From Planctomycetaceae bacterium (lineage in GTDB: Bacteria > Planctomycetota > Phycisphaerae > Phycisphaerales > SM1A02): a DNA stretch of 64,000 nucleotides. The position numbers and the translations under genes were made by a program. Each line of letters starts with the position of its first letter. Position 1 is the first letter of the stretch. The stretch is from contig CANLHK010000005.1 of assembly GCA_947490615.1 (NCBI GenBank), forward strand, positions 124,001-188,000. Reading direction: 5' to 3'. Below the pieces are notes generated by a model. It was not told the origin of the DNA, searched no databases, and saw only the letters and a program-made list of their open reading frames with translations. Positions 16,883-37,030 of the stretch are shown piece by piece.

Positions 16883-17443
16883 TCAGCGCAGCGGGCCTTG
16901 GAACTGCACACTTCGAATGCCGCGCAACCACACGGGGCCGCTGCCGTCCGAAGGTTCGAACCACGCCACGAGATCAACCGACTCGACAGGAAGCGTGTCA
17001 CTGCCGCCCGCCTCAAGCAGCGACAGCACGAGTTCATGACACGGTCCTGCAAGAGAATTCGAACGCGCTCCCTGCACGAAGGCCGCATCGAACGACCACT
17101 CACGCAAGGGATCGGGCCCACGCTTGTCGGGCATGCCCGACTCGCCGAGTCGATAGATCGCGAAGTGAAACGCGCCTTCGGCAAAGAGTGGCGAAGGATG
17201 GGGACGCGAGAAGAGATACGCCGTCACCTGCAACGAGTCAGGTCGTTGGTTGCCGTTGGTGTCCGAAGGCTTGGGTGCAAAAGTGATCGCCAGCGCGTTG
17301 GGCTTGGCGGAACTCGGTGGTGCCACAGGATTCGTCGGACGCGGCACAGGTGCCGAGCCATCGGCTGTCGTGATCGTGGTCTGGCACGCAGACAAACTCA
17401 TGCAAAGCACGATCCCGCCGAGCGTCGCAACCGCAGCATTCAC
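16883..17443 (-). CDS. Small lipoprotein translationally coupled to gspD; candidate pilotin
   Basis: A 186-residue predicted lipoprotein of no family I recognise. The leader ends in the lipobox LSAC (Cys20 of MNAAVATLGGIVLCMSLSAC), followed by a Thr/Pro-rich linker to about residue 48. A compact domain follows with TAYLFSRPHPSPLFAEGAFH near 78 and LVAWFEPSDGSGPVWLRGIR near 158. The start is GTG at 17443, overlapping the gspD stop (GTGA, 17440-17443), so the two are probably translated in a fixed ratio. Secretins often need a small outer-membrane lipoprotein (a GspS or PilW-like pilotin) for targeting. Position, size and lipidation fit that role, but the fold is not recognisably that of known pilotins, so the role is inference. 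It is the last gene of the T2SS operon. Confidence 0.7.
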   Translation of the reverse strand: MNAAVATLGGIVLCMSLSACQTTITTADGSAPVPRPTNPVAPPSSAKPNALAITFAPKPSDTNGNQRPDSLQVTAYLFSRPHPSPLFAEGAFHFAIYRLGESGMPDKRGPDPLREWSFDAAFVQGARSNSLAGPCHELVLSLLEAGGSDTLPVESVDLVAWFEPSDGSGPVWLRGIRSVQFQGPLR

Positions 17444-20400
17444 GGCGCCTTCTCCGCGGCTGGATCCTTCTCCGCATCAGGCTGCGTGTCTGAAGCGGGG
17501 TCCTTCTGGTTCACTGGCATCTCAGCCTCGCGCGCGCCATCACCCAGTTGCCCCTTGCCTTCGAGCTGTCCCTTGCGAACTTGCTCAAGCAACGCTGGAG
17601 GTAGCGAGAGTCGCTCAATCCCTTCGCGCGTCAAGTCCAGCGCCTTCGAAGATCCACCAGCGGTCGGCGAGCGCACGACATGCGGCGTGAGCACGATGAG
17701 CAGCTCCGTCTTGGACGAGCTCTCCTTGTACTGTCGGAACAGCGCGCCCAAGAAGGGGATGTCGCCGAGCAAGGGGATCTTCTTGTCGATGCGCTCAAAG
17801 CGATCGCTGATGAGCCCGCCGATCACGACCGTCTGGCCATCCTTCACGGTCACGGTCGTTGTGGCGCGGCGGCGGGTCACGACGGGCGAGCTGAAAAACT
17901 CGGAGATCTGCGTCGTTTGCAGCGAGAGCCTCGAGATCTCAGGTTCGATCTCCATGCGCACGAAACCCTCAGGATTGATCGATGGCGTGACCGTGAGAAT
18001 GATGCCGATTTCCTCCGGCGTCACGCTCGATTGCGCCACATTGCCATTCGACAAGCCTACTGCAGACGGCAGGCGCACCGTCTCGCCGACCTGGATGAAG
18101 CCCTTCGAGTTGTTCTCCACCATGACCGAAGGATTCGAGAGCACCTGCACGCGACTCTGCGAAGCGAGCGCGTTGATGAGCAACTCGAAGTCCTCTGCAC
18201 CGATGGCCACATTGGGCGTGCCCGAGTTGGTGAAGAGCGAGCCAAGCAATTGGTTTCCAGTTCGACCGCCCACGCCAGGAAGGTTGCCCATCCCAGCTGC
18301 AACGCCAAACTCGCCAATCTTGGCGCGGCCGATCTCCATCCCGAGCGAGTCGGTGGTGTCGAGCGAGACCTCGGCGAGCAGCACTTGAATCAAGACCTGC
18401 GGCGGATCAACATCGAGCTCCTGGATGATCTCCTGCACCTTCTCCATGTAGCGCGGACTCGCGTTCACGAGCACGGTGTTGGATTTCTTGTCGCCCACCA
18501 CGGTGACTTCACGCTCAAGCAACTTCGAGGCACTCGGCAATTCATCAGCCGAAAGAGTCTCAAGGATCTTCTTCTGATCTTCGCTCACGAACTCGTTCAC
18601 CACGCGCGCGACCTCGGTCGCGGTTGCGTTCTTGAGCTTGTAGGCAAAGGTGTCGCGCTCGTTGGCCTTCTGCTGATCCAACTCCAACACGACCTTCTCG
18701 ACAAGCTCGAGGTAGTTCGGAGTACCCGACACCAAGAGCGAGTTCGTGCGGTCATCGACGGTGATCGACAACTGCTGGCGACTGTCGGGGACCAGTGTGA
18801 GGTCGGCACCGAGCGTGCCAACTTGCTGCATCGCGGCTGCTGTGGCGTCCGTCGACGCGCCGGTGTCCGCCGCTGGCGCGTCGGTGGTCTCGCGCGGCTT
18901 CAACACATAGAGGCTGCCCTGCTGGCGAAGGTTGAAGAGCTCCTTCAGGAGCCGCGCCATCTGGCTCGCATCGGCGTTGACCATCTTGAAGATGCGGATG
19001 TTCTGGCTTCCACTGGTCGAGCCGTCGAGGTCGTTGACCATCTGTTCGATCAAGGACATGCTGTCGCGCGGCGCGCGCACAATGATGGTGTTGGTGCGCA
19101 CATCAGGCGTGAGCGAGATCGACTGTCGCGTCGCAGCCGAAATCTCCATCTCGGCACCCTGGCTTGGCGCGCCGTCGATTTCACGGAGGTACTTGAGAAT
19201 CGTGGCTTGCTGCCCAGTGCGACCCGCGAGGGAGTTCCCCGAAAGCACCGACTGAATCAGACCGACGGTCTCCTGCACATTCGCGCCCTTGAGCGTGATG
19301 TACTTGATCTCCACCACCGTTTGCGGCTTGGCCTCATCAAGCTGGGCCACGAGCCGACGAATCGCAGCGATGTCCGCTTCGGGTCCGCTGGCCACGATCG
19401 CGTTGAGTCGCACATCGGGCTTCACTTGCACAATCTGTGCGCCGCGACGGCGATTCTCTTCGGTGACATACATCTCTTCGAGCATGCGCGCCATGTCGGG
19501 CGCCGCATTGTTCGCGAGCATGATGACTTCAAACGGCTTGTCGGCAAGCTGGTCCTTCGCCGCCTGCGCGAGCAGATCGACGAGACCCTTGACGACTTCG
19601 TAGTTCTCTTCACTCGAGGCGACGATGAGCGAGTTCGATGCGACATCAGGAACCACCGACACAGCGTCCGATGGAGTTTCCGAAGTTCCCAATGAGGTCG
19701 CGCGCTCCCGCATGAGTTGCTGGATGCGCGGCGCGATGGTTTCAGCACGCGCCGCAGCAAGAGCGAGCACTCGCACGCCGATGGCGGAGTTCGAGGGGAT
19801 CTCGTCGAGCTTGGCGACGATCTGCCGCACCAACGCGCCATCCTCAGGTCCACCCGCGACGAGCAGACTCGAGGTGCGAGGATCGGCGATGACCAAGGGC
19901 TTCACGCGCTTGGCGACTTCAGGTGAGAGCTCGGCATAGCGACGATTGAGAATCTGCGTGATCGCCGTGGTGAGCCGATCAAGGTTGGCCTTCTTGACGG
20001 GCACCACTTCCACCGACGACTCTTCGAGCAACCGCTCGGTGTCGAGGTCCACGAGGAGCGACTTGATGACATCAAACGAATCTGCGCCCGCCGCAATGAG
20101 CAGCTGGTTGGTGCGATCGTCGGCGGTCACGATCACCCGCTCGAGATCCGCCGTTTGCGGCTGGGTCTTCTGCAGGCGATCGACGCGCGCGTCCATGAGG
20201 CGCTGGATGATCGCGGCCAAGCGCGGCGCGCTGGCATTCTTGAGATCCATCACGCGAATCTCGCGGTACTCAGGCGCTACCTTGCGGTCGAGGTTCTTGA
20301 GGATCTCTTCCACGATGGTGAACGACCGCGCGCTGGTCGAGACGACGAGCGAGTTCAGCCGATCATCGGGCACGACGCGCACGCGATCTTCCGAGCGGAT

Positions 20401-23400
20401 CGCCTTGGCCGCAACCTGCTGATCAAAGAGCTGCACCAGCATCGGTCCGATGCGGGACGCGCTGGCGTTCTCGAGCGGATAGATGCGCACGATCGAGCCA
20501 GGCGCTGCCGCCTCGGTGTCGAGTTGGCGAATGAGCTCCTGCATGATCTCGAGGTTTTGCGTGCTGCCTACGAGCACGAGCGAGTTCGTCGCGAGGTCAG
20601 GACGAATCACCAGCTGGCTGAACGGCACGAAGACATCGCTCTCAATCGCCGCCGCAGGTTGATCGGGACGGGCCGCGCGCGCCATGCGAATGCGGGCGAT
20701 CTGCTTCTGCAACGGGCCGCTCTCGGGGAGCTTGGTCGATCCTTCGACGAGTACGGCAAGCAGCGTCTCGGCGAGATCGCGCGCGTCGGCGTACTGCAGC
20801 TTGACGATGCGTGGCTCGATCCAGCCCATCGTCACCGCGGAGTCGAGTCGCTCGCGCAGCACTTCGACGAAGGCCACGGCCTCTTCCTTGCCCGCCACGA
20901 CCACGGTGTTGGTGCGATCATCCACCGAGAGCGCGATGTTCTGTGTCAACGCCTCACCCGTCGCGCCGCTGGCCTGCGCACGCACCTGCGTTCCTGTCAG
21001 GCCGCCGATTTGCTTCCCTTGCACGAAAAGTTCGCGCACGATGCGAGCAAACTGCTGCGCCTGAATGTTGACCAGCGGATAGATGCGAACCACCGCCGCA
21101 TCAGTCACAGGAAGACGATCGAACAGTTGCGCCGCTTCTTCAAGCGCGCGCACATTGTCGGCAGTCGACGCGAGGATGAGGGTGTTGCTCTGCGCATCCG
21201 AGAGGATCTTCACCGGCTTCTGCAGATCAAGCGCGATCGGTGCCGACGCGCCTTCAGGCGTGATGCGCAGTCGCCGCACTTGCTCTTGCAACGCACGCGC
21301 GAGCTCAGCGGGCCGATTGCCCGCACCACCAGCTGCGGGAGTCGCGCCTGCGCCACTGCCCTGCGCCACCATGGCGCGCAGCGTTTCGGCGATGCTCGCA
21401 GCCGCCGCGTTCTTCATGCGGACAATGCGAACCTCCGAGTCCGCCATCGGCGGATCGGCATCGATCGACTTGAGCAGCGAGAGAATCGTGTCACGGTCGG
21501 CGGGGTTCGCCACGATCACCAACGCGCTGCGATTGGCAGCGACCGAAACCTTGAGCGGCTCCGAGATCACCTTGGCCACGCTGTCGACGGGCTGCGCGCG
21601 ATCGAGCCCGATCTCCTCGATGATCTTCTTCGCCGACTCGGGTGGAGTGTTCACGAGATCGATGATGAAGATGCCCTTGGTCGAGTCGGGCGCGAGTGCG
21701 TCCATCTGCTCGACGAGCTCCTTGATCTCCTGGAAGATCGGACCCGTGGAAGCGATGACGAGACTGTTGGCCACCGTGTCGATCTGGATCGACAGCGTGA
21801 GACCTGCCTGACGCGCACGCTGCAGGAACGCCTCACGAATCGCAGCCGCGACGCGCGGTGCAGGCGCCTGCTTGAGTTGGAGCAACTGCACTTGCAGCCC
21901 CTGCTCCGTGGCCTGCTGTTGCAAGGCCTCGGCGATGGCGGCAATCCGCGCGTAGTCCTCTTCCGAGGCGCGCACGATGAGCGCATTACTCGTGGTGTCG
22001 CCGACGATGCGCAGTCCGTTGTCCCGACCCGCTGGGCGACCGTTGCCAAACACGCGCTCGATCGAACGCGCCAGTTGCTCGGGGTTTCCCGAGCGCACAG
22101 GAATGAGTCGCGGCGCAGGAAGCTGCGTGAAGTCGGGCAAATCGAGCTGCGCGATGATCGCATCGATCTTGCGCATGTTCGACGGACTTGCGGCGATGAC
22201 GAGGTTGTTGGAGAACTCGTCGGCGCTCGCGGTCACGAACTCTTCAGGCTTGACCTGCGGCACGATCGGCTGAGGCAGCTGTTGCCCCTGCTGGTTCTGC
22301 TGGATGGGCTGCGGCTTGGGACGAAGATCGTCGAACGCTTCGTTGATCGCGCGCGCAACGCTCTTGGCGTCGGCGTGCTTGAGCGCCACGACGCGCAGTT
22401 GCCGCGAGCCGTCGTACTGCTCGGTGTCGAGCTCTTCGAGCAACTTGCGAATGCCTGGCCACTCGGTCTGCTCGGCTGAGATGACCAGAGAGTTGGTCGC
22501 CTCATCACCGATGATGCGCACGCCCTGCTTGGCGGGCGTGTCCGCGTCGAGTGCGCCCGCACCGTAGAAGTAACTCAGCGCTTCCTGAATACCGCGCGCC
22601 TTACCTTGCTTGAGCGGCACAAACTCGGTGACGCGGCGCTTCACGCTGCGCACATCAATCGCCTTCACCACATCTTCAATGGTGCGGAACTGCTCGGGCG
22701 TCGCCGCCACGATGAGGCGATTCTCCGTCGGATCCGCTTCGATGCGCGGCGCGTCGGCCTTGGCCGTGGTGCCGCCCGAGGAAACAAGACTGCCAAGCGT
22801 GCGCGAAACTTCATCGGCCGCTGCGAACTGCAACGGGATGATGCGGAACTCAATCGCGGCCTTCGCGGGCGATTCTTCGAGTTGCGAAAGCAGCTTCTCG
22901 ATGACGGGATAGCTCTCGGGTGTCGCGGTCACGATGAGCGAGTTGGATCGCGTGTCCGCAAGAATTCGCGCGCTGACTTGCACCGCAGGACGACCTGGCT
23001 CGGTGCGAACCGCGAGACCCTGCGTGCGACCTTTGGCATCGAGTTGCAACGAGCCCGTGAGAATCCGCACAGCCTCGTCCGCCTTGGCGTTCTTCAGGAC
23101 GAAGGTGCGAATGACCGTCTCTTCCGCACTCGCTGGCGCATCGAGGCGCTCGATGAGCGACTTGATCTGACCCAGCTGCAGCGGCGGCGCGGAGGCGATG
23201 ATGCTGTTGGTGCGCACATCAGGCGTGATGCTCACGCCCTGCACAGCACCCGAACCCGAGCGACCACGGAACTGCTCACCGACGATCTTGGCGATGTCGA
23301 CGGCCTGACCTTTGCGCAGCACGATGATTTCGCTCTGGCGCTCACCACCTGTGGCGGGTTGGTCGAGGCGCGTCACGAGATCGCGAATCGTTGAGATCTC

Positions 23401-26400
23401 ATCCGCAGTGCCTGCGACAAGCAGCGCACCGCCCGATGCCGAAGGAACGATCGTCGAGACACTCGCGCCGCCCGATGCCGCAGCACTGCGGTCATCAAGG
23501 AATTGCTTCAAGGTCGACGCGAGCTCGGCAGGAGTCGCGAACTCCACAGGAATCACCGCGCTCTGACGACCATCCTGCACCAGTGTGGTCGTGAGCGAAT
23601 CCAAGAGCGCTTTGATCTCGTTGTGCTGACTGTCGGTGGCACGCACCACCAACTTGCGGCTTCGCACTACGGGAATCACGCGCGATCCACTGCTCGTCTG
23701 CGCCGACTCCCACGGTCGCAGCGAACGCTCGCCGATGGCGTCGCGCACCAGTCCCGCGATCTGTTCGATGTCGCCATGCTTGACCTCATAGATCCGCACG
23801 ACGCGTACATCGCCCTCAGCGGGAACGACATCAATCGCCGTGATGAACTCCGAAGCAAACGCGAAGCGATCGCCACGACCCGCGACCACGATGGAGTTGC
23901 GGCGCTCATCCGCGCGCACACTCACCATGTCGTCCGCACCGCCGCCGCCCATCGAAGCCAGCAGCTGCTCGAGCGAGCTGGTGATCTCCGTCGCTCGCGC
24001 GTGCTGCAGCGCGAACACTTTGAAGTCGAGTGACTTCGCGGTTTCGGGCGCGTCGAAACCCTTGACGAGTTCGCTGATCTCCGCGAAGTCCGCCTCATTG
24101 GCGGTCACAAAGAGCGATGCGCTGCGCCCATCGGCCACGATCGACACTGCGCGCTGCTGACCGCGACCGCGTCCACCGTTGGCAATCTGCAGGCGGTCAT
24201 CAAAGAGTTTCTGCAACGCCGTGGCGACACGCTGCGCGTCGGCGCGTTCGAGTTTGATCTGCTTGATGGCAAACTGCTTGGTGGCGCTGCGATCGATCTC
24301 GGCAATGACCCGACCGATCTCTTCGCGCGCCGACGCATCGGCGCGCACAAGCAGCATGCCCGACGCATCGTCTGCGACAATCTGCGCGCGCTCGCGCATC
24401 GACGGGTTCGCAGCGAACACCACCTTCTCGATGGTGAGCAGAACCTCACTGGGCTTGCCGTTGTTGACCACGATGGTTTCCAACGCAGCGTCGGCGATCG
24501 GACTTGGTGCATCAAGCACGGTGAGCAGGCGCTCAATCTCGGCGCCCGCCTCGGCACCGCCCGCGATGACGATCATGTTGGTTCGATCATCGGCGGCAAA
24601 CTCAGGCACGCTGGTCACGATTCCCTGCGCGCCGAGTGATCGACCTCGCGCAATGAACGCGGTCTGCAAACTGCGCACAACTTCCGCGGCCTTGGCGTGC
24701 TTCAGGGGCACAAGACGAAGCTCTGGAACGGGTGAGCGATCGCTGCGGTCGGCAAACGCCACGAATCGATCGGCAAATGCGACGGCGTCGGGAGCGCCGA
24801 CGACCGTGACCGCGTTGGCGCCACGCTCCGCAAAGACGCGCACGCTGCTTGGATCAAACGCCGCCGACTCGGTCCCGCCGCCATCCTCCGCGAGCGTGAC
24901 GGCCAGCGACTTCATGTGCGCGCCACCACCTTGGGTGAGGATCGAACGCAGCGCCTCGGCGACGCGCTCGGCACCCGTGTTGCGCAGCACGAAACTCTTC
25001 ACCATCACCTGCTGCGGTTGCTGACCACGCGACAACGCCGCGACCAATTGTCCGACCGCTTCGAAGTCGCGATCGTTCGCGACCACAATGAGCGAACGCG
25101 TCTCTTCGTCGGCCACGATGGCGACGCGCTTGGCGAGATCGCCAGGCTGTCCACCCGCGGGCGTGATGCGAGCGACCGCGCCAGTCACGATGGAAGAGAT
25201 CTTGGTGGGATCGGCAGAGGCGGGAAGACGAATGGAACGGATGCGCGAGCCTTCGCCTGGCAGCGACTTTGAGGCCTGCTCGATGAGTTGCATCGCGCGC
25301 TCGATCTCGCGTTGCGAGCCGAGCAAGAGGAGCGAGTTCGATTCCTTATCGACGGCGACGGTCACGCCGCCGCGTTCCGAAGTCGCTTCAGGTTTCGTGG
25401 CGCCCGCCGCTTGCGACTGTGGCGCTCCGGCCGATGCCGCGAGAGGAACTTGCGCAAACACCTGGGTGAGGAACGCAAAACGAGCGGGCAGTGACGGCGG
25501 CCAGCCGAGGTGGTGCTCGGGAGTCCATGTCTGCGTCGCCGTGCTCTTGACTTCGAGATCGTCGGCGGTGAAGTGACGGCTCTGCGCACCACTGGCTGGT
25601 GGCTTGGGCGCGTCGTAGCGCTTGAGCAACTCTTCGACGGTGATGACTTCGATGTCCGCCTCGCCGCCTTGCATCATGCGCCGCAGCAGTCGTGCGATTT
25701 CTTCCGCGTCGCCCTTCGATGGATCAAGCGGAACGCTCTTCAAGCTTCGCGAACTGGCGATCGCAGCGGAATCGAGCCGCGTGACGATGCTCTCGACCAT
25801 GGTGTACTGCTTCTCGGTGGCGCGCACGAGCAGGCTGTTGCTCGCGACATTCACGCGAATCACCGGCGGAGCTTCGGTGCCATCATCGGTCTCGAAGATG
25901 TCCGCGAGACTCTTGGCGACCTCGGCCGCGTCACCGTTCTTCATGGTGATCACGCGCACCGTGCGGTCGTTGCCTTCGTTCTGTCCGACATCGAGTTGAC
26001 GGAGCATCTCTTCGGCAGCATCGAGTGCGGTGGGCGTCGCAGAAATCACCACGGCGTTCAGCCGCTCGTCGGCGATGACGCGCAGCCCGGGCTCAGTGGG
26101 ACTCGGCACGCCGCCGCGGCCACGCGTGGGTTGAGCCATTTCACTGGCGAGCAATTGCTCGACGAGCGGCGCCATCTGCACAGCGCGCGCGCTCTTGAGG
26201 AACACGGTGCGCACCCGCGCCGCGTCGCGAGGTCCACGCATGTCCATGTCGCGAACCGTCTTCTCGATCTCGTCGAGTTGGCTCGGTTCCGCAGCCACGA
26301 TGATGGTGTTGCTCGTGGGCTCAGCGGTGATGGTTGGTTTCGCGCGACCCGGCCGCGACGCCGCGCGCGCAGCGATCGCCTGCTCGATGGCCTTGGCCAC

Positions 26401-29400
26401 CGTCTCGGCGGTTGCTTCGTTCAGTGGATAGACGCGGATCTCCATCGGCGCATCGCCCTCGCGCGCCTTGTCGAGTTGCTCGACCACTTGCGTCGCGATC
26501 GCCATGAGCTCAGCGGGCGCTGTCACGATGACACGCGCGTTGAGCGGATCGGCGACGATCCTCGGCTCCATCACCGCAGCGCCCGCCTTCGCAGCGGACA
26601 CGAGTGCAGCGGGCCATCGCGAACGATCCGATAGGACAGCGGTCAGCGCGCCGACCACGACCTCAGGCGAAACATGCTTGAGTTGAATGACGCGGAAGTC
26701 TGCTTGCGGTGACGCGAACGCCTTGCCATCGAGCTCGCTGAGCAACTCCTTGGCGCGCGCCGTGCCTTCGGCGCTTCCAACCACCACGATCGTGCCCGAC
26801 TGCGGCAGCGCCGAGAGTTCGATCCGCGACACTCCCGCAGAACCGGCGCTCTCAAGAATCCGTCGCGCTTCCTCGACGAGTGCGGCCACGGGCGCCTTGC
26901 TCGGCGTGAACACCAACCATGTGCGTGACGCTGCATCGCCGTCGCGGTCGAGTTCCTTGATGAGTCCCTCGGCGATACTCATGATGCGCGCGGCACCTGA
27001 GACGATGAGCGAGTTGGTGCGCGCGTCGGCCTCGACACGCACCGGCGGGACTTCGACGAGTTGGCCGCGCGTGCGGCGCATGCGCTCAAGCGCCACGCGT
27101 GGATCGGTGTCCTGCTGATCCGCAAGCAAGCGTTGCACCAGTGGTGCGATGCGCGCGCTGTCGGTGTTCTTGAGTGGGAAAGTCTTGGCGTCCACTGAGT
27201 CGAGCGCGGGGCGCTCGTCGAGAGATGCGATGAGTTTGTCGGCCTCGTCGAGGTCGGTCGCTGGACCAACCATGAGAAGCGCGTTCGAACCCGTCGCAGC
27301 GATGACCTTCACCGCGAGCGCTTCGTGCGTCAGCGGATTGGTGCCTGCTGCCAGCGCAGGCGTGAGGCTGGCCGCGACCTCGGTCGCATCGGCGTAGAGC
27401 AACGGACGCACACGCACGATGGGATCGCCCGTCGAGACGCTGCCGTCATCGAGTTGACGAACCAATTCATCGACGACAGGCATGAGCACATCGGGCGCCG
27501 ACACGATGAGGGCGTTGGAGCGGCGATCGGCAGCGATGTCGAGCACGCGCGTCGCGCGACTCGCCAAAGTGGGCTCGATTTCAGCCAAGCGTCCTTCGAG
27601 CGCGCTGCGCACCAATGGTGCGAGCAGCTCGGACTTCGCGCTCTTGAGTTTGAACACGCGCAGAGTCGTCGCAGGCTGTGCCGCGCCCTCGACGCCACGC
27701 ACGACTTGTTCAATGCGTGGGAACACACTCGTCGGCGCGCTCACCACGAGCGTCTTGGACACGGGCTCCACCGTGACGACCGCATTGGTGCCCTCAGGCC
27801 CAAGCTTGCCTGCAGTCGCGAGCTCGCGAATCGTCTTGGCGATGCTTTCGAGATTGCCGTCAGCCAAGCGCCAAGTACGGATCTCTGCCTCAGGCATGGC
27901 CTGGGTGCGATCGAGTTGCTCGACGAGTTTCTCGAAACCCGCCATGCGCGACAACGGCGCGTCGACAATCAGTGAGTTGGTTTGCACATCGGCGCGCACC
28001 ACGACTTCACGCGGCGGCTGCAACTCGGGGCGCGCACGACCACGCGGATCGACGGGGACCGGCGGCGCGGGATACATCTCGTCAATGGTCTTGGCGAGCT
28101 CTGCGGCGCGCGCGACTTTGAGCGAGAAGATGCGGATCTCACGGTCCGATGCCGATTGTCGCGTGGCGCCGTTGAGGTCTTCAACGATCGCCTGAATCTC
28201 AGGCAAGAGGTCAGGATGTGCCGCCACGATGAGCGCGTTGGTCTGCGCTTCCGCGGTGATCTGCACCGGCTTCGCGCCCTTCTCTTCGGGCGTGCGCTGC
28301 GCGTAGGTCTGCATGAGCGCCGTGGCAAGCACCCCCGCGTCGGCGCTGCGCAACTGGAGGATGCGCAACGGCGGCGTCGCTCCCGATGGCACATCGAGGT
28401 TCTTCAACAGCATCGTGAGCAACTCATGCTGCCGCGAATCCGCCGCGACGAGCAAGGAGTTGGTGCGCTCGAGCACTTCGATCACGGGCTCACGCGCGAA
28501 ACCTGAACTCTGTCCGAGGCGACTCGCTGCGAGTCCATCGAGATACACCTTCGCATCAACGGCCTTGGCGAAACCCATGGGGATCACGCGGACATCCGCA
28601 CTCGGACTCGTGGCCACGACAAGTTGTCGGAACGCATCGGAAAAACGCGCGAGCAGTTCATCCTCGCCACTGGCGACGATGGTGCCGTTGGCGACATCGA
28701 TCTCGGTCTCGATCGCAGGTGGTTGTCCTTCGATCGGCTCAAGCGACGCAAGTTTGAGCGCCTTGCCGAGCAGCGTCACCGCATCACCAGCGCCCACATC
28801 GATCACGCGCACGCCGCGCTTGGTGGGAACTGCCTGCAGCTGCTTGAGCAGTTGCTCGGTCTTCTCGAAGGTCATCGAATCGCCTGCCACAATGAGCGTG
28901 CGACTCGTGGGCTCGGTCTGAATCACCACTTCGACGGGCTTCGCGCCATCAAGACCAGGTTTCGCGAGCATGCCGCGCGCGCTGAGATCGCGCAGCGTCT
29001 GCCCGATCCGCTCCATGTCGCCCTTCTCCACGCGATAGGTGCGCAGTTCTGCCTGCGGCGGAAGCGGCGTGCGATCAAGCGTGAGGACCAACTGTTCGAA
29101 GCTCGCGCGTCGTTCCGACGGTGCTTCGACGATGAGTGAGTTCGTCGTGACATCCGCGGTCACGAAGACATCCTTGGGCTTCTGCAGATGTGGCAACGGG
29201 CGACCACGCGCATCGAGTGGCACTGGTGGTGGTGGATAGAGCTTGTCGAGCGCGATGGCGAGGTCGGCCGCCTTGGCAGCCTTGAGCGCCATGACAAAGG
29301 TCTCGCGGGTAGGACCCGATCCGGTGTCACCCGAGCGATTGAGTTCGGCGATGAAGCCCTTGATCTCATCAAACACCGACGCGTGCGCGGTGACAATGAG

Positions 29401-31854
29401 GGTGTTGGTTGTCGCGTCACTCTCGATGCGAACGGGCTTGGAGCGACGCTCTTCAGGCGCGCGCTCGTCGTAGCGCTTGGACAACATCGCCGCGACTTGC
29501 ATCGCATCGCCACCGCGCAATTGCAACAGGCGCAGTGGTGGAAGCTCTTCGGGCGACGCGATGTCGAGGTCGCGCACAAAACTTTCGATGAGCGTGAGCT
29601 GCGGCGCCTCGCCGACGATGTAGAGCGCGTTTGTCGGCTCGATGACGGTGATCTCTGCGGCAGGAACGCTGCGCGAAGGATCGACGGGGGTCGCCGACGC
29701 CAACAACGGTTGCAACTTCGCAGCAAGCTCGGACGCTTTCGCTGCACGCATCGGAATGATCTTGGCCACGCGTGGCGGCGGCAACAGCAATCGCGCTTGG
29801 GACAGCGCCTGCTCAAACATCGCCACGGATGCGCTGCGACCACTCACGAGTAACGCGCCGCTTGACGAGTCGATCTCGACAGTTGGTACAGGAAGTTCCT
29901 CTTCCGAACCCTTGGCAAGTTGCGCGAACACCATGGTGGCGCGCGCGACGAGCTTGGTTGCGTCGGCTCCTGGTGCGGGAATCGCGCGGAACGCGAAGGC
30001 ATCGCGGCCCGTGCGATCCAATCCCGCCACCAACGACTGCACTTGCGCGACTTGCTCGGGAGTGCCCGATACCAACAGCGCCTTCATGCTGTCGATCGCT
30101 TCGACGCTTGGTGGCGTGAAGGGCTGACCATCATGCGGATCAAGTACCTGTCGCGCGAGGTCGCGCACTTGCGCCACGATGACCGACGGCGTGGCGTTGG
30201 CCACGGCGATCTGCCGCGTCTCGCGCTCGACGACGCGCGTGGAATCAATCTGGTTGAGCAACTCGGTAAAGCGCGAGATCGATTGCGCGCTGCCGATGAG
30301 GACAAGCTCGCGACTCTTCGCGTCAAACTCGATGCGCAGGCTGCGCGTGGGATCGCCCGACTGCGTCTGCTGCTCGTAGAGTTGCCGCGCGCGCTCGACG
30401 CTGGCTTCGCCGTCTTTGCTCGCCACGCGGACCAGTCGAACTTGTCGATCGACATTCGCGGGACGATCGAGCGTCTCCACGATGGCGCGCAGCCCCGCGA
30501 TGTCGGAAGAATCTCCGCCGACCAAAATGGTGCGTCCATCAGGACCCGCCACGAGCGTGACTTCATCCTGCTGGCGCTTGGAGAGCAGCGAGCGTGCCGC
30601 CGTGAGAATCGCTTCGGGAGAAGCGCTCTGCAGTTCGATCGCCGCAATGGCGCGATCACCGCGCAGACGATCGCGCACGGTCGCTGGCTTGTTGCGAGCG
30701 ATCTTCGCGGGATCGAAGCCTTCCATCTCAAGGATGAAGCGCTCGGCGTCATCGATGGCGCCGAGGTCACCCACGATGGTCACGCGATCCGCTTCAGGCA
30801 ACGCGACGATCGTCGGCTTCTTGTCGGCGGGATAGCCGACAAAGAGTTGCTCAAGGCGTTCCTTCGCTGCCGCTGCCTTGACCTTCTCGACTGGGAAGGT
30901 CTTCATGCCGCGCCCGCCCGAGGCCGTCGGTGCCGCCGAATCGGCGATCGGAACATCGAGCAGTTCAATGGTCTGTCGCACCGAGTCGATCTTGGAGCGC
31001 GGGCCGCGCGCAATGATCGCGTTGGTGCGATCGTCGGCAGCGAGCATCAGCCCCGCGACGCGGTTTTCCTCGATCTTCTGCCGCTTTCCATCGGCGATCA
31101 CGTACTCGATCACGCGCTCACCCATGAGCGCCTGCAGGCTGAGAATGAGCACGCTCGCCTTGGTGAAGCGCACGGGCAGCAGCTCGATCACATTCTCGAC
31201 ATCTTCTCGATCGAGCTCATCGATGATGCGCTGCAGACGACGAATCTGCGCGGCCGTCTCGACGAGGAGCACCGCGTTCTGTTGCTCGAGCGCGGTGACC
31301 GAGCCGTAGCTCGCCACGAGCAGCTTGAGTTGTTCCGCGACAGGCTTCGCCTGCGCGTTGAGCAGCGGCAGCACGACGGTGACGATCTCTTCATCGCCAA
31401 TCGAAGCGGGAACGGTGCCGATGAAGGTCGGCACATTCTCGCGCTTCATGTCGTCGAGCTTCTGCAGGAAGAGCCGCGTGCCTTCGTCGCGCAGCATGCA
31501 GTTCTGCGTTTGCAACAGGACATTGAGCGTGCGCAACGCCTCGTCGAGCGAGTAATCCTTGGGATAGATGTAGTCGACGGTGCCCTTGGGAACTTCGGTC
31601 TCACGCACAATGGGAAGGCCAGTCACTCGACTGAAGAAGTCGAGGATCTGGTCGTAGGTTTGGCCCTTGAAACTGAAGCGGATGCGCACCGACTCGCGCG
31701 AGGGCGGCGTGACTTGAGCGGCGTTGGCCGCTGGGACCGCACCTTCGGGTGGCGTCGGCGATTGCGCGAGGGATGGCTGCACCACCATGGCGGCAGCGAT
31801 GAGGGGGGCGACTCCGTTGCCCAAGGGCATCGAACGCTTCGTGCGCTTCTTCAT
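17440..31854 (-). CDS. gspD: Giant type II secretion system secretin GspD with about 52 tandem N-domains
   Basis: Outer-membrane secretin of the T2SS, about 4,804 residues against roughly 600-750 for ordinary GspD. Order of parts: signal peptide ending near SLAQ (about 31); an N0/STN-like domain (about 56-135); then about 52 consecutive N1-like secretin_N units (about 136-4,480, mean near 83 residues). Each unit has a basic-hydrophobic first strand, a helix, an Asp-x-x-(T/S)-N-(S/A)-L-(I/V)-V strand and a final helix ending near LD. The channel domain begins near 4,483 (QVLIQVLLAEVSLD) and holds the secretin signature IPLLGDIPFLGALFR near 4,690. An acidic, Pro/Ala-rich tail follows. The ATG at 31854 has GGAG just upstream and begins a good signal peptide, although the frame is open to 32124. 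No stop or frameshift interrupts 14.4 kb. It follows gspM/C and overlaps the lipoprotein gene. Confidence 0.9.
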   Translation of the reverse strand: MKKRTKRSMPLGNGVAPLIAAAMVVQPSLAQSPTPPEGAVPAANAAQVTPPSRESVRIRFSFKGQTYDQILDFFSRVTGLPIVRETEVPKGTVDYIYPKDYSLDEALRTLNVLLQTQNCMLRDEGTRLFLQKLDDMKRENVPTFIGTVPASIGDEEIVTVVLPLLNAQAKPVAEQLKLLVASYGSVTALEQQNAVLLVETAAQIRRLQRIIDELDREDVENVIELLPVRFTKASVLILSLQALMGERVIEYVIADGKRQKIEENRVAGLMLAADDRTNAIIARGPRSKIDSVRQTIELLDVPIADSAAPTASGGRGMKTFPVEKVKAAAAKERLEQLFVGYPADKKPTIVALPEADRVTIVGDLGAIDDAERFILEMEGFDPAKIARNKPATVRDRLRGDRAIAAIELQSASPEAILTAARSLLSKRQQDEVTLVAGPDGRTILVGGDSSDIAGLRAIVETLDRPANVDRQVRLVRVASKDGEASVERARQLYEQQTQSGDPTRSLRIEFDAKSRELVLIGSAQSISRFTELLNQIDSTRVVERETRQIAVANATPSVIVAQVRDLARQVLDPHDGQPFTPPSVEAIDSMKALLVSGTPEQVAQVQSLVAGLDRTGRDAFAFRAIPAPGADATKLVARATMVFAQLAKGSEEELPVPTVEIDSSSGALLVSGRSASVAMFEQALSQARLLLPPPRVAKIIPMRAAKASELAAKLQPLLASATPVDPSRSVPAAEITVIEPTNALYIVGEAPQLTLIESFVRDLDIASPEELPPLRLLQLRGGDAMQVAAMLSKRYDERAPEERRSKPVRIESDATTNTLIVTAHASVFDEIKGFIAELNRSGDTGSGPTRETFVMALKAAKAADLAIALDKLYPPPPVPLDARGRPLPHLQKPKDVFVTADVTTNSLIVEAPSERRASFEQLVLTLDRTPLPPQAELRTYRVEKGDMERIGQTLRDLSARGMLAKPGLDGAKPVEVVIQTEPTSRTLIVAGDSMTFEKTEQLLKQLQAVPTKRGVRVIDVGAGDAVTLLGKALKLASLEPIEGQPPAIETEIDVANGTIVASGEDELLARFSDAFRQLVVATSPSADVRVIPMGFAKAVDAKVYLDGLAASRLGQSSGFAREPVIEVLERTNSLLVAADSRQHELLTMLLKNLDVPSGATPPLRILQLRSADAGVLATALMQTYAQRTPEEKGAKPVQITAEAQTNALIVAAHPDLLPEIQAIVEDLNGATRQSASDREIRIFSLKVARAAELAKTIDEMYPAPPVPVDPRGRARPELQPPREVVVRADVQTNSLIVDAPLSRMAGFEKLVEQLDRTQAMPEAEIRTWRLADGNLESIAKTIRELATAGKLGPEGTNAVVTVEPVSKTLVVSAPTSVFPRIEQVVRGVEGAAQPATTLRVFKLKSAKSELLAPLVRSALEGRLAEIEPTLASRATRVLDIAADRRSNALIVSAPDVLMPVVDELVRQLDDGSVSTGDPIVRVRPLLYADATEVAASLTPALAAGTNPLTHEALAVKVIAATGSNALLMVGPATDLDEADKLIASLDERPALDSVDAKTFPLKNTDSARIAPLVQRLLADQQDTDPRVALERMRRTRGQLVEVPPVRVEADARTNSLIVSGAARIMSIAEGLIKELDRDGDAASRTWLVFTPSKAPVAALVEEARRILESAGSAGVSRIELSALPQSGTIVVVGSAEGTARAKELLSELDGKAFASPQADFRVIQLKHVSPEVVVGALTAVLSDRSRWPAALVSAAKAGAAVMEPRIVADPLNARVIVTAPAELMAIATQVVEQLDKAREGDAPMEIRVYPLNEATAETVAKAIEQAIAARAASRPGRAKPTITAEPTSNTIIVAAEPSQLDEIEKTVRDMDMRGPRDAARVRTVFLKSARAVQMAPLVEQLLASEMAQPTRGRGGVPSPTEPGLRVIADERLNAVVISATPTALDAAEEMLRQLDVGQNEGNDRTVRVITMKNGDAAEVAKSLADIFETDDGTEAPPVIRVNVASNSLLVRATEKQYTMVESIVTRLDSAAIASSRSLKSVPLDPSKGDAEEIARLLRRMMQGGEADIEVITVEELLKRYDAPKPPASGAQSRHFTADDLEVKSTATQTWTPEHHLGWPPSLPARFAFLTQVFAQVPLAASAGAPQSQAAGATKPEATSERGGVTVAVDKESNSLLLLGSQREIERAMQLIEQASKSLPGEGSRIRSIRLPASADPTKISSIVTGAVARITPAGGQPGDLAKRVAIVADEETRSLIVVANDRDFEAVGQLVAALSRGQQPQQVMVKSFVLRNTGAERVAEALRSILTQGGGAHMKSLAVTLAEDGGGTESAAFDPSSVRVFAERGANAVTVVGAPDAVAFADRFVAFADRSDRSPVPELRLVPLKHAKAAEVVRSLQTAFIARGRSLGAQGIVTSVPEFAADDRTNMIVIAGGAEAGAEIERLLTVLDAPSPIADAALETIVVNNGKPSEVLLTIEKVVFAANPSMRERAQIVADDASGMLLVRADASAREEIGRVIAEIDRSATKQFAIKQIKLERADAQRVATALQKLFDDRLQIANGGRGRGQQRAVSIVADGRSASLFVTANEADFAEISELVKGFDAPETAKSLDFKVFALQHARATEITSSLEQLLASMGGGGADDMVSVRADERRNSIVVAGRGDRFAFASEFITAIDVVPAEGDVRVVRIYEVKHGDIEQIAGLVRDAIGERSLRPWESAQTSSGSRVIPVVRSRKLVVRATDSQHNEIKALLDSLTTTLVQDGRQSAVIPVEFATPAELASTLKQFLDDRSAAASGGASVSTIVPSASGGALLVAGTADEISTIRDLVTRLDQPATGGERQSEIIVLRKGQAVDIAKIVGEQFRGRSGSGAVQGVSITPDVRTNSIIASAPPLQLGQIKSLIERLDAPASAEETVIRTFVLKNAKADEAVRILTGSLQLDAKGRTQGLAVRTEPGRPAVQVSARILADTRSNSLIVTATPESYPVIEKLLSQLEESPAKAAIEFRIIPLQFAAADEVSRTLGSLVSSGGTTAKADAPRIEADPTENRLIVAATPEQFRTIEDVVKAIDVRSVKRRVTEFVPLKQGKARGIQEALSYFYGAGALDADTPAKQGVRIIGDEATNSLVISAEQTEWPGIRKLLEELDTEQYDGSRQLRVVALKHADAKSVARAINEAFDDLRPKPQPIQQNQQGQQLPQPIVPQVKPEEFVTASADEFSNNLVIAASPSNMRKIDAIIAQLDLPDFTQLPAPRLIPVRSGNPEQLARSIERVFGNGRPAGRDNGLRIVGDTTSNALIVRASEEDYARIAAIAEALQQQATEQGLQVQLLQLKQAPAPRVAAAIREAFLQRARQAGLTLSIQIDTVANSLVIASTGPIFQEIKELVEQMDALAPDSTKGIFIIDLVNTPPESAKKIIEEIGLDRAQPVDSVAKVISEPLKVSVAANRSALVIVANPADRDTILSLLKSIDADPPMADSEVRIVRMKNAAAASIAETLRAMVAQGSGAGATPAAGGAGNRPAELARALQEQVRRLRITPEGASAPIALDLQKPVKILSDAQSNTLILASTADNVRALEEAAQLFDRLPVTDAAVVRIYPLVNIQAQQFARIVRELFVQGKQIGGLTGTQVRAQASGATGEALTQNIALSVDDRTNTVVVAGKEEAVAFVEVLRERLDSAVTMGWIEPRIVKLQYADARDLAETLLAVLVEGSTKLPESGPLQKQIARIRMARAARPDQPAAAIESDVFVPFSQLVIRPDLATNSLVLVGSTQNLEIMQELIRQLDTEAAAPGSIVRIYPLENASASRIGPMLVQLFDQQVAAKAIRSEDRVRVVPDDRLNSLVVSTSARSFTIVEEILKNLDRKVAPEYREIRVMDLKNASAPRLAAIIQRLMDARVDRLQKTQPQTADLERVIVTADDRTNQLLIAAGADSFDVIKSLLVDLDTERLLEESSVEVVPVKKANLDRLTTAITQILNRRYAELSPEVAKRVKPLVIADPRTSSLLVAGGPEDGALVRQIVAKLDEIPSNSAIGVRVLALAAARAETIAPRIQQLMRERATSLGTSETPSDAVSVVPDVASNSLIVASSEENYEVVKGLVDLLAQAAKDQLADKPFEVIMLANNAAPDMARMLEEMYVTEENRRRGAQIVQVKPDVRLNAIVASGPEADIAAIRRLVAQLDEAKPQTVVEIKYITLKGANVQETVGLIQSVLSGNSLAGRTGQQATILKYLREIDGAPSQGAEMEISAATRQSISLTPDVRTNTIIVRAPRDSMSLIEQMVNDLDGSTSGSQNIRIFKMVNADASQMARLLKELFNLRQQGSLYVLKPRETTDAPAADTGASTDATAAAMQQVGTLGADLTLVPDSRQQLSITVDDRTNSLLVSGTPNYLELVEKVVLELDQQKANERDTFAYKLKNATATEVARVVNEFVSEDQKKILETLSADELPSASKLLEREVTVVGDKKSNTVLVNASPRYMEKVQEIIQELDVDPPQVLIQVLLAEVSLDTTDSLGMEIGRAKIGEFGVAAGMGNLPGVGGRTGNQLLGSLFTNSGTPNVAIGAEDFELLINALASQSRVQVLSNPSVMVENNSKGFIQVGETVRLPSAVGLSNGNVAQSSVTPEEIGIILTVTPSINPEGFVRMEIEPEISRLSLQTTQISEFFSSPVVTRRRATTTVTVKDGQTVVIGGLISDRFERIDKKIPLLGDIPFLGALFRQYKESSSKTELLIVLTPHVVRSPTAGGSSKALDLTREGIERLSLPPALLEQVRKGQLEGKGQLGDGAREAEMPVNQKDPASDTQPDAEKDPAAEKAP
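27428..29785 (-). repeat. Tandem duplication of a five-N-domain block inside gspD
   Basis: Two adjacent blocks of about 392-393 residues (28607-29785 and 27428-28606) contain five N-domains each in the same order. Matching landmarks are PPLRLLQLR versus PPLRILQLR, YPPPPVPLDARGRP versus YPAPPVPVDPRGRA, and AELRTYRVEKGDME versus AEIRTWRLADGNLE. The equal lengths and preserved linkers show a segmental duplication that has since diverged. Confidence 0.8.
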
Positions 31855-32020: not shown

Positions 32021-33169
32021 TCACCCGTTGCTCGGCGCCGCAAGCACCGCCGCGCGCTGGGTGAGGTTGGTTCCAACCTGAATTCGACACGCGCCAATGG
32101 GCGTGTCGAACACGGCGAAATCATACTCGACCGCGCGGAAGACGAGCTCGCCGACGGGCATGCCCGGGCTCAGCGCAACGCTCGCTCCGCTCGGAAGATG
32201 TCGCACCCAAGCTTCTGCGCCACTTGGGCCAATCACCACGCCGGTGATCTGCCATTCGCCGTACGGAAAACCACCTGGTGGAACCGGCACCGGCGGCACG
32301 ACTCCGGTTGGGTTCGCGGCGGGATTGGTCGGTGGGGTCGCGCCTGTGTCGCCGGCGTTTGGATTTGCAACCAACGCAGCGGGTGGAATCGCTGGTGGAG
32401 GCGGAACGCGGAACGGGTTCGAAGCAAAGAGCGCTGCGTATCGATCCGCCAGTTGGAGTTTCGCCGGGTCGAGGAGCGGCGGAGACTTCGCTGCGAGCCC
32501 GGGCATGAACGGTGTCGTGAGCTTGAGCGTGATGCCGAGCTGCTGGCCATCGGCGTTAGGGTTGAGCCTGATCGACTCGATCCGCTTGATCCACGGCTCC
32601 GCGTCGACGCGGAAGATCAAGCGGTAAATCCTGTCCACCGTTCCCGTTGCGATGATTGTCCCCTGAACCTCTACGAAGTCGATCTCGTCGCGAAGCTTGC
32701 GCGCGTCGGGTGACTTGAACTCTTTCTTAGCCGGAGTCGGCCGTCCAACTGAGGTTCCCGTCGTCACAGAAAAGTCGTTGAAGCCAAGCTCTTCACACGC
32801 GCGGTTGAGCCGTCGTCGAACCTCGCTGTCGACCGTTTCGAGACTGGCGCCGAGCATCTGGTTGGCCAGCGACTGCATCTTGCCATCGAGTTCGGGTCGC
32901 GCCTTCGACTTTGCAGACGCGTCGGTGAGCACCTGGATGTAGGTCTCGATTTCGGTGAGCGTCTTGGCGCGCTCGTCAGTCATGCGGCGCTCGCCGACGA
33001 TGTATCCAAAGCCGATGGCTGCGAGCACGCTGCCTGAGACAGCGAGCGCGAACCAATGTCGGCGCAAGCGTCGCATCATCTCGGGGAACGAACCGCGACG
33101 CTGCCCGATGCCGCGCGGGGAGTGTGCGGAGGCGGTCGACTTCGCGGGCGAACCGTTGGCGGTGGTCAT
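32021..33169 (-). CDS. GspM/PilO-like inner-membrane protein fused to a GspC/PilP-like HR domain
   Basis: T2SS inner-membrane platform component. The 382-residue protein has a cytoplasmic N-terminus and one membrane span (WFALAVSGSVLAAIGFGYIV, about 39-58). A periplasmic coiled-coil and ferredoxin-like region of the GspM/PilO kind covers about 60-210, and a long Pro-rich linker (PPPPAIPPAALVANPN...PVPVPPGG) about 245-300. A C-terminal beta domain of about 75 residues follows (WQITGVVIGPSGAEAWVRHL, ending near DTPIGACRIQVG). It resembles the GspC homology region or PilP, the part that docks on the secretin N0 domain. It overlaps gspL by ATGA and precedes gspD by 166 bases. The gspM part is supported by position, and the gspC part by pattern only. 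Confidence 0.7.
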   Translation of the reverse strand: MTTANGSPAKSTASAHSPRGIGQRRGSFPEMMRRLRRHWFALAVSGSVLAAIGFGYIVGERRMTDERAKTLTEIETYIQVLTDASAKSKARPELDGKMQSLANQMLGASLETVDSEVRRRLNRACEELGFNDFSVTTGTSVGRPTPAKKEFKSPDARKLRDEIDFVEVQGTIIATGTVDRIYRLIFRVDAEPWIKRIESIRLNPNADGQQLGITLKLTTPFMPGLAAKSPPLLDPAKLQLADRYAALFASNPFRVPPPPAIPPAALVANPNAGDTGATPPTNPAANPTGVVPPVPVPPGGFPYGEWQITGVVIGPSGAEAWVRHLPSGASVALSPGMPVGELVFRAVEYDFAVFDTPIGACRIQVGTNLTQRAAVLAAPSNG

Positions 33170-34755
33170 GAGCCGCCTCCTGGCTTCTCATCGCGCGGAG
33201 TTGCGCCTGGTTGTCGAGGTTCAAGTTCGACGGTGCGCAGCGTGTACGCGAACGGATACGGCAACCGTCGTCCGCCGCGTGCATCAGCACCCGTCGAGGC
33301 AACGGTGTAGCCCTTCTCCTTCACCAACGCATCGCGCAGCGAATCCGCCACCGTGCGATCCTTCGCTTCGCCATCAAGGACGAAGCGAAGCTCTGGCTTC
33401 GAGGTCATCTTGCCGAGATCGCTGTAGTCGATCTCGGTGCCGTCGAGCGAGGCGTTCAGTCCATCAAGGACGACACTTGTCGGATCAGGCGCAAATCGCC
33501 GCAGCCCGTCGAAGTGCGCAAGCCAGTTCGGTGCGAGGTCGCGGTACGCCTCGACATGCTTGACCTTGAGTTCATCGCGCTTGTAACGAAGTCGCATCGG
33601 TGAGGCAGTTCGGGCCTTTGAGAGCAGATCGTCGTGACGCGTTTCCACCGCGACCCACGCACGCGTGCCGAAAGTCCAACCCGCAAGCCCCGCGATCAGC
33701 ATGACGCCCGCGACAAGAATCACGCGCTGGCGCATCCGCGCCGCGAGATCGATCAGCGGCGTTGGATGCAAGAGATCAATCGCGTCACCGCTCGGCAATA
33801 CCGCCGCATCGTCCTCGAGCAACAGTCCCGCCAATGGAAGACAACTCGCGCAGACCTGCTCGCGCACATCGGGTGAGGAGAATCCCACGCGTGGATGCGC
33901 GTCGAGACGAACCACCGAGCAACCAGCGATCGCCGAGAGTTGCGGCGCAAGGACTGCGCCGACGGTCTGACTCATCGTGAGCACGATTCGATCGAGTGTG
34001 AGGCCGTCGGTGGCCGATCGCAGCGAGGTCAGCAGACGCCGAACTTCGACGAGAATGGCAGCCGCTTGCGCTTCCGGTGTTGCGCCAGACAACGCCGTGC
34101 CGCGGGAATGCAGCAACTCTCCATCGCGCACCACCGTGCACTCGAGCATCTGCCGCGTTGCATCAACCGCGAGTGTGACGCCCTGTTGAAGCGAGTCGCT
34201 CGCCCGAAGAAGTGCCAGCATGCCCAGCGCACGCAGCGAAACCCGCGCCACGGGAGATCCCGCGCGGGCTGCGGCCTCGTCGACACGCGCGCGCGTCGCC
34301 GCTGCAACCACCACGCTGACCGCGCCGCTCGACGCCGACGAACGCTGAAAATCGGAAAGCGTCTCAGTGCCTTCGACGCTGTAGTCGCGCACCAGCGCCA
34401 TGCGCGCCATGCTGCGCAACTCGGCTTCATCATCCGATGGAAGCTCCACGCGACCGATGAGTGACTCTTCGCGCGCGAGCGCCACGATGGAGGGAACTCC
34501 TGCGACGCCAAGGATGTCACGGGCCTTCGCGAGTTCGCCGTCGGTCGGTGTCGTCTCGTCACACACACGCACGATGGTGATACGTCCGCCCGAGCGCTCG
34601 CAGAGAATGGCGCGCGACCAAGTCGCACCGCCGTCGATGACCAAACGACGCGCGTCGACTTTGGCGCGACGCGAAGAGTGTGGAATCAAGCGAGTCCACT
34701 GCACCGCGAGTGCTTCGACCTGTCGCGGAATGGATGAGCTGCCTTGGTCTGCCAT
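33166..34755 (-). CDS. gspL: GspL-like (PilM-PilN type) inner-membrane assembly protein
   Basis: T2SS platform protein that links the cytoplasmic ATPase to the inner-membrane complex. The 529 residues start with an actin-like cytoplasmic domain: RRLVIDGGATWSRAILCERS near 42, VTLAVDATRQMLECTVVRD near 193, LDRIVLTMSQTVGAVLAPQL near 255. One membrane span (VILVAGVMLIAGLAGW, about 340-358) leads to a periplasmic coiled coil and ferredoxin-like domain (SVVLDGLNASLDGTEIDYSD, about 430). This is the PilM plus PilN layout in one chain, as in GspL. It is larger than typical GspL (about 400). It lies 20 bases after gspK and overlaps the next gene by 4 bases. Confidence 0.75.
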   Translation of the reverse strand: MADQGSSSIPRQVEALAVQWTRLIPHSSRRAKVDARRLVIDGGATWSRAILCERSGGRITIVRVCDETTPTDGELAKARDILGVAGVPSIVALAREESLIGRVELPSDDEAELRSMARMALVRDYSVEGTETLSDFQRSSASSGAVSVVVAAATRARVDEAAARAGSPVARVSLRALGMLALLRASDSLQQGVTLAVDATRQMLECTVVRDGELLHSRGTALSGATPEAQAAAILVEVRRLLTSLRSATDGLTLDRIVLTMSQTVGAVLAPQLSAIAGCSVVRLDAHPRVGFSSPDVREQVCASCLPLAGLLLEDDAAVLPSGDAIDLLHPTPLIDLAARMRQRVILVAGVMLIAGLAGWTFGTRAWVAVETRHDDLLSKARTASPMRLRYKRDELKVKHVEAYRDLAPNWLAHFDGLRRFAPDPTSVVLDGLNASLDGTEIDYSDLGKMTSKPELRFVLDGEAKDRTVADSLRDALVKEKGYTVASTGADARGGRRLPYPFAYTLRTVELEPRQPGATPRDEKPGGGS

Positions 34756-36335: not shown

Positions 36336-37030
36336 GGTCGACTCCCTCGCGGCGTTGTTGGCGGCGGACTCTTCGCGTCGTCTTCGAGCTTGCGGATCGC
36401 CAGCGGATCGACCTGGGGCGCGCCAGCGACGCGAAAGAACCGCGTGCGATCAGGTGGCGCTTCGATGGTGTTCGTCACGCTCTCTGGATCGCGCGCCTCG
36501 GCATCCGTCGTCGCGTCACCTTGTCGCGCAAACCAGATCGAGAGTTCGATTCCCACTGGAAACGATGCAGCGTCGGCGCTGTCAAACGCGTCCTGCCATC
36601 CGTCTTCAGCGAGATAGCGCAGACGCATCGTCCGCACGGGCGCGGCCAACGCGCCGCCAGGCTCTCCACGCGACACGGTGACACGCTGCGCCCCTGAGGA
36701 GAACTCGACCGTCGTCGCCGAGAGGCCGCTGAACGGTGGCTGGCCATCGTTGCCCAGCCCCACCGCAGCGCGCACGATGCGCACTGATGATTCGTTGCCG
36801 TCGATTCCAGAACCGAGCGCGCCGCCGTCCACCACCGCCGACGCGCAGGCGCGTTCAAGTGCGGTGAAGATCTCGTCGGCACATTCGATTTCACGCGAAG
36901 CACGCGCCAAGCGCGCGCGCGCGTCGCCGAGATTGGCGGTGAACATGGCAATGGCGCCGAGAAATGCCGTCGCAATCGCCACGCCGACGATCACTTCGAG
37001 CAGCGAGAAACCAAGGCGACGCATCCTCAT
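36332..37030 (-). CDS. gspJ: Type II secretion minor pseudopilin GspJ
   Basis: Minor pseudopilin forming the I-J-K-H tip complex. The 232 residues begin MRMRRLGFSLLEVIVGVAIA, with a prepilin peptidase site G|FSLLE and Glu at +5. The globular part contains RMRYL-type sequence (RTMRLRYLAEDGWQDAF near 143) and VGIELSIWFARQGDA near 165, as expected for GspJ. The C-terminus is extended and Pro-rich. It overlaps both neighbours by four bases (ATGA with gspI upstream and gspK downstream), indicating tight translational coupling through this part of the operon. Confidence 0.8.
   Translation of the reverse strand: MRMRRLGFSLLEVIVGVAIATAFLGAIAMFTANLGDARARLARASREIECADEIFTALERACASAVVDGGALGSGIDGNESSVRIVRAAVGLGNDGQPPFSGLSATTVEFSSGAQRVTVSRGEPGGALAAPVRTMRLRYLAEDGWQDAFDSADAASFPVGIELSIWFARQGDATTDAEARDPESVTNTIEAPPDRTRFFRVAGAPQVDPLAIRKLEDDAKSPPPTTPRGSRP

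Follow-up and report, generated by a model that had tools for sequence, protein, structure and literature searches.

In a stretch of 64,000 nucleotides from a planctomycete of the class Phycisphaerae (contig CANLHK010000005.1 of assembly GCA_947490615.1), called the window below, we found a giant gspD, the gene for the secretin of a type II secretion system (T2SS). The giant gspD is real, intact, conserved and class-wide. As judged by its domains and gene neighborhood, the protein is a T2SS GspD, and its scale is what is new: 52 contiguous N1-type domains in front of a single channel. We consider it rather probable that these domains are stacked as rings and form a tunnel of more than 100 nm across the periplasm. 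We are more tentative, at somewhat less than even confidence, about the wider proposal that the Phycisphaerae and their kin possess the longest known bacterial secretion tunnel (about 53 rings, about 130-150 nm and 7.7 MDa from one gene), in which the number of N units, constant within a genus (38, 50 or 52) and spanning 3 to 63 in the phylum, would be a gene-encoded ruler fitted to the distance between the membranes.

The preliminary description, made from the letters of the window, had claimed one uninterrupted reading frame with a signal peptide, an N0-like domain, about 52 N1-like units (about 4,345 residues, mean about 83) and one secretin channel with its signature, and every element of this architecture was recovered. 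The longest version of the frame, taken from its first ATG, covers 17440-32124 on the minus strand and has 4,894 aa; the residue numbers given here refer to it. The ATG at 31854 appears to be the better start, and the protein database prediction for the gene (P0002) likewise has 4,804 aa. A signal-peptide-like N-terminus was read by eye. The N0 region matches positions 3-113 of TIGR02517, which correspond to N0-N1 of GspD, over 31336-31671 (E 2.9e-5), and the Pfam model for the GspD N0 domain scores 15.8 bits, below its cut-off of 27. A profile built from the protein's own units and then iterated gives 52 consecutive units over residues 240-4573 (4,334 residues, mean 83), each with an independent E-value of 3.3e-11 or lower and with at most 14 residues between neighbors. 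Pfam Secretin_N finds 45 stretches that are each significant alone, where fewer than about ten would have spoken against the claimed count. Among 20 shuffled copies of the protein the profile found no unit in 18 and one unit in 2, and among the 175 stop-free stretches of the window it found the 52 units of the giant frame and one unit in each of three others. The array is followed by a single Pfam Secretin domain (residues 4652-4818; model positions 1-169 of 169, 162.7 bits) that contains the signature IPLLGDIPFLGALFR.

In an alignment the last two units and the channel are collinear with N2, N3 and the channel of XcpQ and E. coli GspD. The NCBIfam GspD model gives the whole protein 1268 bits against a cut-off of 351, a score that is summed over the repeats; with the last 459 aa only, GspD is still the top family at 270.1 bits, below that cut-off. 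An identity as PilQ, the secretin of type IV pili, was considered and rejected, since the channel part fits GspD better (the PilQ model scores 175.6 bits) and a GspG above its cut-off is encoded in the same cluster. The protein thus shares with GspD, PulD and XcpQ (PDB 6hcg, 5wln and 5wq7) the N0 domain, the N1-type domains with their fold, the channel and a cluster with GspF and GspG. It differs from them in having 52 N1-type units instead of three and 4,804 aa instead of the approximately 620-660 aa of those chains, in a cluster where no gspE was matched among the frames tested and where an HR-like domain is fused to a GspM-like protein. PilQ of Thermus thermophilus also has extra N domains, several rings and a long vestibule, according to an excerpt of PMC4463427, but it has six N domains against the 53 here and belongs to a type IV pilus and not to a T2SS. 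The same excerpt puts the length of this PilQ, which has N0-N5, at about 35 nm, and PulD, which has N0-N3, is 20 nm long with a base 15 nm wide. We found no description of secretins with many N domains among the titles and abstracts listed in our searches of the open-licence literature; the string 'giant secretin' occurs once in PMC6155069. Planctomycetota are named as rich in huge proteins in an excerpt of PMC11573180, a paper that does not contain the word secretin. Excerpts of other papers record secretin annotations in Kuenenia (PMC3422733) and mention type II secretion genes in Planctopirus (PMC10632474).

The units are old: 753 of the 1,326 pairs could be aligned over at least 50 residues, with a median identity of 28% and a 95th percentile of 37%. 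Units 9-11 are 49, 57 and 36% identical to units 14-16, a shift of five units, and because units 9 and 10 stand out in this way against 14 and 15 we see here a trace of the duplication of a five-unit block. The longest exact repeat inside the gene is 24 bp, and the collapse of reads is therefore no concern. Our sources are mostly metagenome-assembled, which is what could suggest an artefact of assembly or gene fusion; against this stand the short repeats, giant genes with 36-53 units in seven single-contig genomes (G024, G046, G062, G092, G231, G265 and G293) and the recurrence of one unit number in assemblies made independently. Among 121 proteins (the window gene being both P0001 and P0002) there are 46 with 52 units and 13 with 53; in the latter one insert-bearing unit is apparently split. 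We regard an artefact as refuted for the family, with practically no chance left to it.

The order of the units is conserved as well. Reciprocal best unit hits with the window gene number 52 of 52 at the same index in P0003 and P0028, and 48-50, all at the same index, in the more distant P0048, P0060 and P0121. Proteins with 47, 43, 37, 33 or 56 units are collinear and differ by whole units, chiefly among units 4-29, while the three most distant (P0088, P0113 and P0114) give 20-23 reciprocal hits that are ordered just near the ends. Unit order is collinear in 17 of the 20 loci fetched. Each of five complete genus mates carries 52 units, with reciprocal hits for 52 of 52, and a sixth is cut by its contig at 48. 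Compared with three genus mates, the ratio of nonsynonymous to synonymous substitution (dN/dS, NG86; 47, 52 and 52 units measured, dS up to 3.2) has per-unit medians of 0.17, 0.17 and 0.24 and maxima of 0.39, 0.52 and 0.58. Every measured unit is under purifying selection. This is stronger evidence than the constant unit number, which could also come from slow recombination between diverged units. It bears on the possibility that the full-length protein is not the working form and that cleavage or an internal start yields a secretin of ordinary size plus other pieces, as the collinearity of the last two units and the channel with an ordinary N2-N3-channel might suggest. One open frame in many genomes, conservation index by index and selection throughout the array all speak against such a product, also against the short 3'-end form that the preliminary description had thought of, and we consider it very improbable.

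The number of units varies widely beyond the genus. With a broader profile, applied to 43 loci of which one gave none, the five complete genus mates have 51-53 units. Among the other genera that were sampled more than once, four f2 genomes have 50 each, three f4 genomes have 38 each (37 in the narrower count) and two nearly identical f8 genomes have 39 each. Secretins of ordinary size give 1-5 units with this profile (the 1 being the PilQ-like L003), followed by 9 in f88 and f81, 13 in the Gemmata type, 15 in f17, f19 and f21, 32 in f15, 36 in f22, 38 in f4, 39-41 in f8, 44 in f6, 46 in one f5 genome but 4 in another, 39-51 in f2, 47-56 in f1 (48 in the contig-cut gene) and 63 in f16. For f8, f22 and Gemmata the counts are lower limits, since stretches of 70-358 aa went unrecognised. 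The proteins of Gemmata obscuriglobus, Urbifossiella limnaea, Fimbriiglobus ruber and Tuwongella immobilis are 2,118-2,251 aa long, and 10-14 units were recognised in them. The GspD of G. obscuriglobus, a cultured organism (P0122, 2,175 aa), and those of other Gemmataceae resemble the window protein in coming from the same phylum and having an enlarged N-domain array; they are unlike it in their 10-13 recognised units, long Gly-rich inserts and unrecognised stretches. In P0122 very long Gly-rich and FG-rich inserts lie inside the array; they could form a sieve, provided that they line the lumen. A ladder of 3 to 63 units in one phylum, with cultured Gemmata intermediates, makes it testable whether secretins were lengthened to fit a wide planctomycete periplasm.

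How far the giant form has spread is beyond what a single stretch could have shown to the preliminary description. Orthologues (E of 1e-130 or lower) are present in 14 of 16 genomes of the genus and in 12 of the 21 others of the family. In the class, the channel part was matched at 1e-40 in 179 of 297 genomes, secretins of ordinary size included. There were at least 150 matches; among the 150 listed, where some genomes give two rows and contig ends shorten some frames, 70 belong to frames of at least 3,000 aa, 10 to frames of 2,000-2,999 aa, 40 to frames of 1,400-1,999 aa and 30 to shorter ones, and the longest frame has 6,169 aa. The largest among the genes examined is L094 (genome G097), with 63 recognised N units in 6,169 aa. 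A draw from the phylum gave matches in 111 of 391 genomes; 19 of 112 rows reach 3,000 aa, all 19 from the window's own class. In the protein database 765 relatives were found at 1e-10 among 1,333 scored candidates. The named organisms among the matches listed are planctomycetes, the rest being called merely 'bacterium' or metagenome, and no search was aimed outside Planctomycetota. Within the family but outside the genus, genome size is 2.0-3.3 Mb in the 9 without a giant orthologue and 2.5-5.2 Mb in the 12 that have one (uncorrected for completeness); loss of the system seems to accompany genome reduction.

The preliminary description had proposed a long tube of stacked rings, which is favored by our results and falls short of proof. 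Over 5,589 junctions (5,709 units of 120 proteins) the median spacing is -2 residues and 98.6% lie within 5, while five ordinary secretins have -3 residues at 11 of 14 junctions. Inserts of at least 6 aa sit immediately after helix 1 in 2,173 of 2,175 cases. In five ordinary secretins the 12 long inserts occupy the same place, as does, in an alignment, the Gly-rich loop of the canonical N3; the PulD paper describes constriction sites in N3 and a loop, 288-303, that was unresolved. The loops after helix 1 may thus line the lumen. Neighboring units appear to be joined as in ordinary GspD; the rings themselves are not visible from sequence. Because the junctions are free of linkers as in ordinary GspD and the long inserts fall almost solely at one loop, the stacked-ring tube is favored. 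The adjoining inner-membrane protein, whose C-terminal domain resembles the HR domain of GspC, points the same way.

Two other arrangements have to be weighed against these results. The protein could be a flexible or folded-back string, with rings only at the N0 end and at the units near the channel, and with the middle units as a beaded tether looped within a periplasm of ordinary width. This would agree with an AlphaFold2 monomer of well-formed beads in uncertain mutual orientation, with the ordinary secretins of the same genome and with a unit number that varies most in the first half and middle of the array. It agrees poorly with units that have no linkers between them, with inserts restricted to one place, with a constant unit number in the sampled genera and with selection on each measured unit, and we consider it unlikely. 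Alternatively, rings or arcs could form a comb whose loops offer many binding sites for cargo or cell wall and bridge no distance. The units are individually distinct and conserved by position, 21 of the 52 in the window gene carry inserts of 4-89 aa after helix 1, and within the family the gene tends to occur in the larger genomes. The binding function of the loops is purely putative, and the inner-membrane partner would still require N0 near the inner membrane, which leaves such a comb improbable.

In the stacked-ring tube the rings would be 15-fold, as in known GspD. At our estimate of about 2.5-3 nm per ring, 52 rings would measure about 130-150 nm, and with a chain of 511 kDa a 15-mer would weigh about 7.7 MDa. 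The HR-like domain of the GspM/GspC-type fusion would dock N0 at the inner-membrane platform; in that case N0 sits close to the inner membrane, and bridging the gap falls to the secretin. A long pseudopilus would drive exoenzymes, already folded, along the tube and up to the gate in the outer membrane, and the number of units would set the distance bridged, in a locally widened periplasm. The protein raises the questions of how a piston could function across a distance above 100 nm and of whether the count of domains serves as a molecular ruler.

Several observations weigh against such a tube or its use as a ruler. The predicted structure of units 31-40, a test that the preliminary description had proposed, gave good unit folds (beta-alpha-beta-beta-alpha, most like secretin N domains) and no reliable arrangement between units; the global confidence is low, with a predicted local distance difference test score of 75 and a predicted template modelling score of 0.37, and the best multi-domain match is a loose one to XcpQ N0-N2 (171 residues at 5.8 A). 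This model leaves stacking undecided, also because the PulD authors report that the position of N0 relative to N1 differs between crystal forms and ring. The insert positions depend on the profile alignment, and a profile made solely from 26 short units places 1,400 of 1,502 inserts after helix 1 and 76 at its end. The HR-like match was made by fold only (Foldseek E 0.17, not significant; probability 0.99), and a profile search of PDB sequences with the fusion protein missed it and returned nothing convincing. Some class members have secretins of the giant family with just 3-5 units, and in a tree built from 38 channel domains and rooted at its midpoint, with good support for 21 of its 35 inner branches, four of these are nested among the giants with support of 95/94, which could reflect loss, separate growth or exchange. 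The best matches to the C-terminal part in G005, G008, G018 and G021 each have one in-frame TGA, which could mean that the C-terminus is shorter, that the gene is broken or that sequencing introduced an error. A greatly enlarged periplasm is possible in planctomycetes according to an excerpt of PMC5394234, a paper on Planctomycetia. The same genome also encodes secretins of ordinary size, with 918 aa (GspD-like, 4 N units; L113:9798-12551, G000 C3), 653 aa (PilQ-like) and 1,044 aa. The window contains flagellar genes at 7723-11219 on the plus strand (two FlgF/G-like rod proteins, a FlgA-type chaperone and the L-ring protein FlgH), and the same cells should therefore build a flagellum, a second envelope-spanning machine whose length can be compared with that of the giant secretin. 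Because of these ordinary secretins and the L-ring gene, a gap wider than 100 nm all over the cell is improbable, and we favor either a gap whose width is fixed within a local zone or a spacing that is imposed by the tube itself. Crateriform structures were considered as the visible counterpart of the secretin and rejected, since an excerpt of PMC8882080 describes Phycisphaeraceae without them.

The gene lies in a T2SS cluster whose members are collected in Table 1 with the features of the secretin.

Table 1. Giant gspD, its main features and the neighboring T2SS genes (window positions)
Feature	Position	Strand	Basis or remark
Lipoprotein-like gene	16883..17443	minus	directly downstream of gspD, 4-bp overlap; conserved beside gspD in relatives
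Giant gspD	17440..31854	minus	4,804 aa; frame stays open up to ATG at 32124
Secretin channel domain with IPLLGDIPFLGALFR	17671..18171	minus	Pfam Secretin; alignment to known GspD chains
52 contiguous N1-type (Secretin_N) units, mean 83 aa	18406..31407	minus	iterated unit profile and Pfam
Unit 25, longest insert (89 aa) after helix 1	25264..25770	minus	unit profile
Units 14-16	27682..28392	minus	partners of units 9-11
Units 9-11	28828..29559	minus	closest copies of units 14-16
GspD-type N0 domain	31420..31701 (limits approximate)	minus	TIGR02517 match
Signal-peptide-like N-terminus (MKKRTKRS...LAQS)	31759..31854	minus	by-eye reading
Inner-membrane protein: long helix, PilO/GspM-like domain, C-terminal GspC-HR/PilP-like domain	32021..33169	minus	fold search
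GspL-like	33166..34755	minus	weak PilM match; homologues adjoin giant gspD in relatives
GspK-like	34776..36335	minus	sub-threshold helix-hairpin-helix hint; position conserved
GspJ-like pseudopilin	36332..37030	minus	N_methyl slightly below cut-off
GspI-like pseudopilin candidate	37027..37482	minus	prepilin-like N-terminus by eye; tiles exactly between neighbors; no family match
GspH-like pseudopilin	37479..38288	minus	matches below cut-off
GspG major pseudopilin	38371..38946	minus	above NCBIfam cut-off
GspF	39033..40409	minus	Pfam T2SSF above cut-off; top NCBIfam model GspF, 302 of 424 bits

The inner-membrane protein encoded next to gspD is, to go by its modelled fold, a putative fusion of a GspM-like and a GspC-HR-like part. 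The lipoprotein-like gene has matches in 20 frames of the gspD loci of relatives, and its lipobox-like Cys is invariant in the 12 sequences aligned; Pfam on 12 members found nothing consistent and a profile search of PDB sequences nothing convincing, and we regard the product as a candidate pilotin. Elsewhere in the same genome there are 10 matches to T2SSE, the family of the GspE ATPase. Beside gspF, at 40288-41313 on the minus strand, a secreted-looking protein with no Pfam match carries a C-terminal VPAPGAISLLAAVGLFGRRRR, which by eye is PEP-CTERM-like; it is a possible cargo or sorting substrate.
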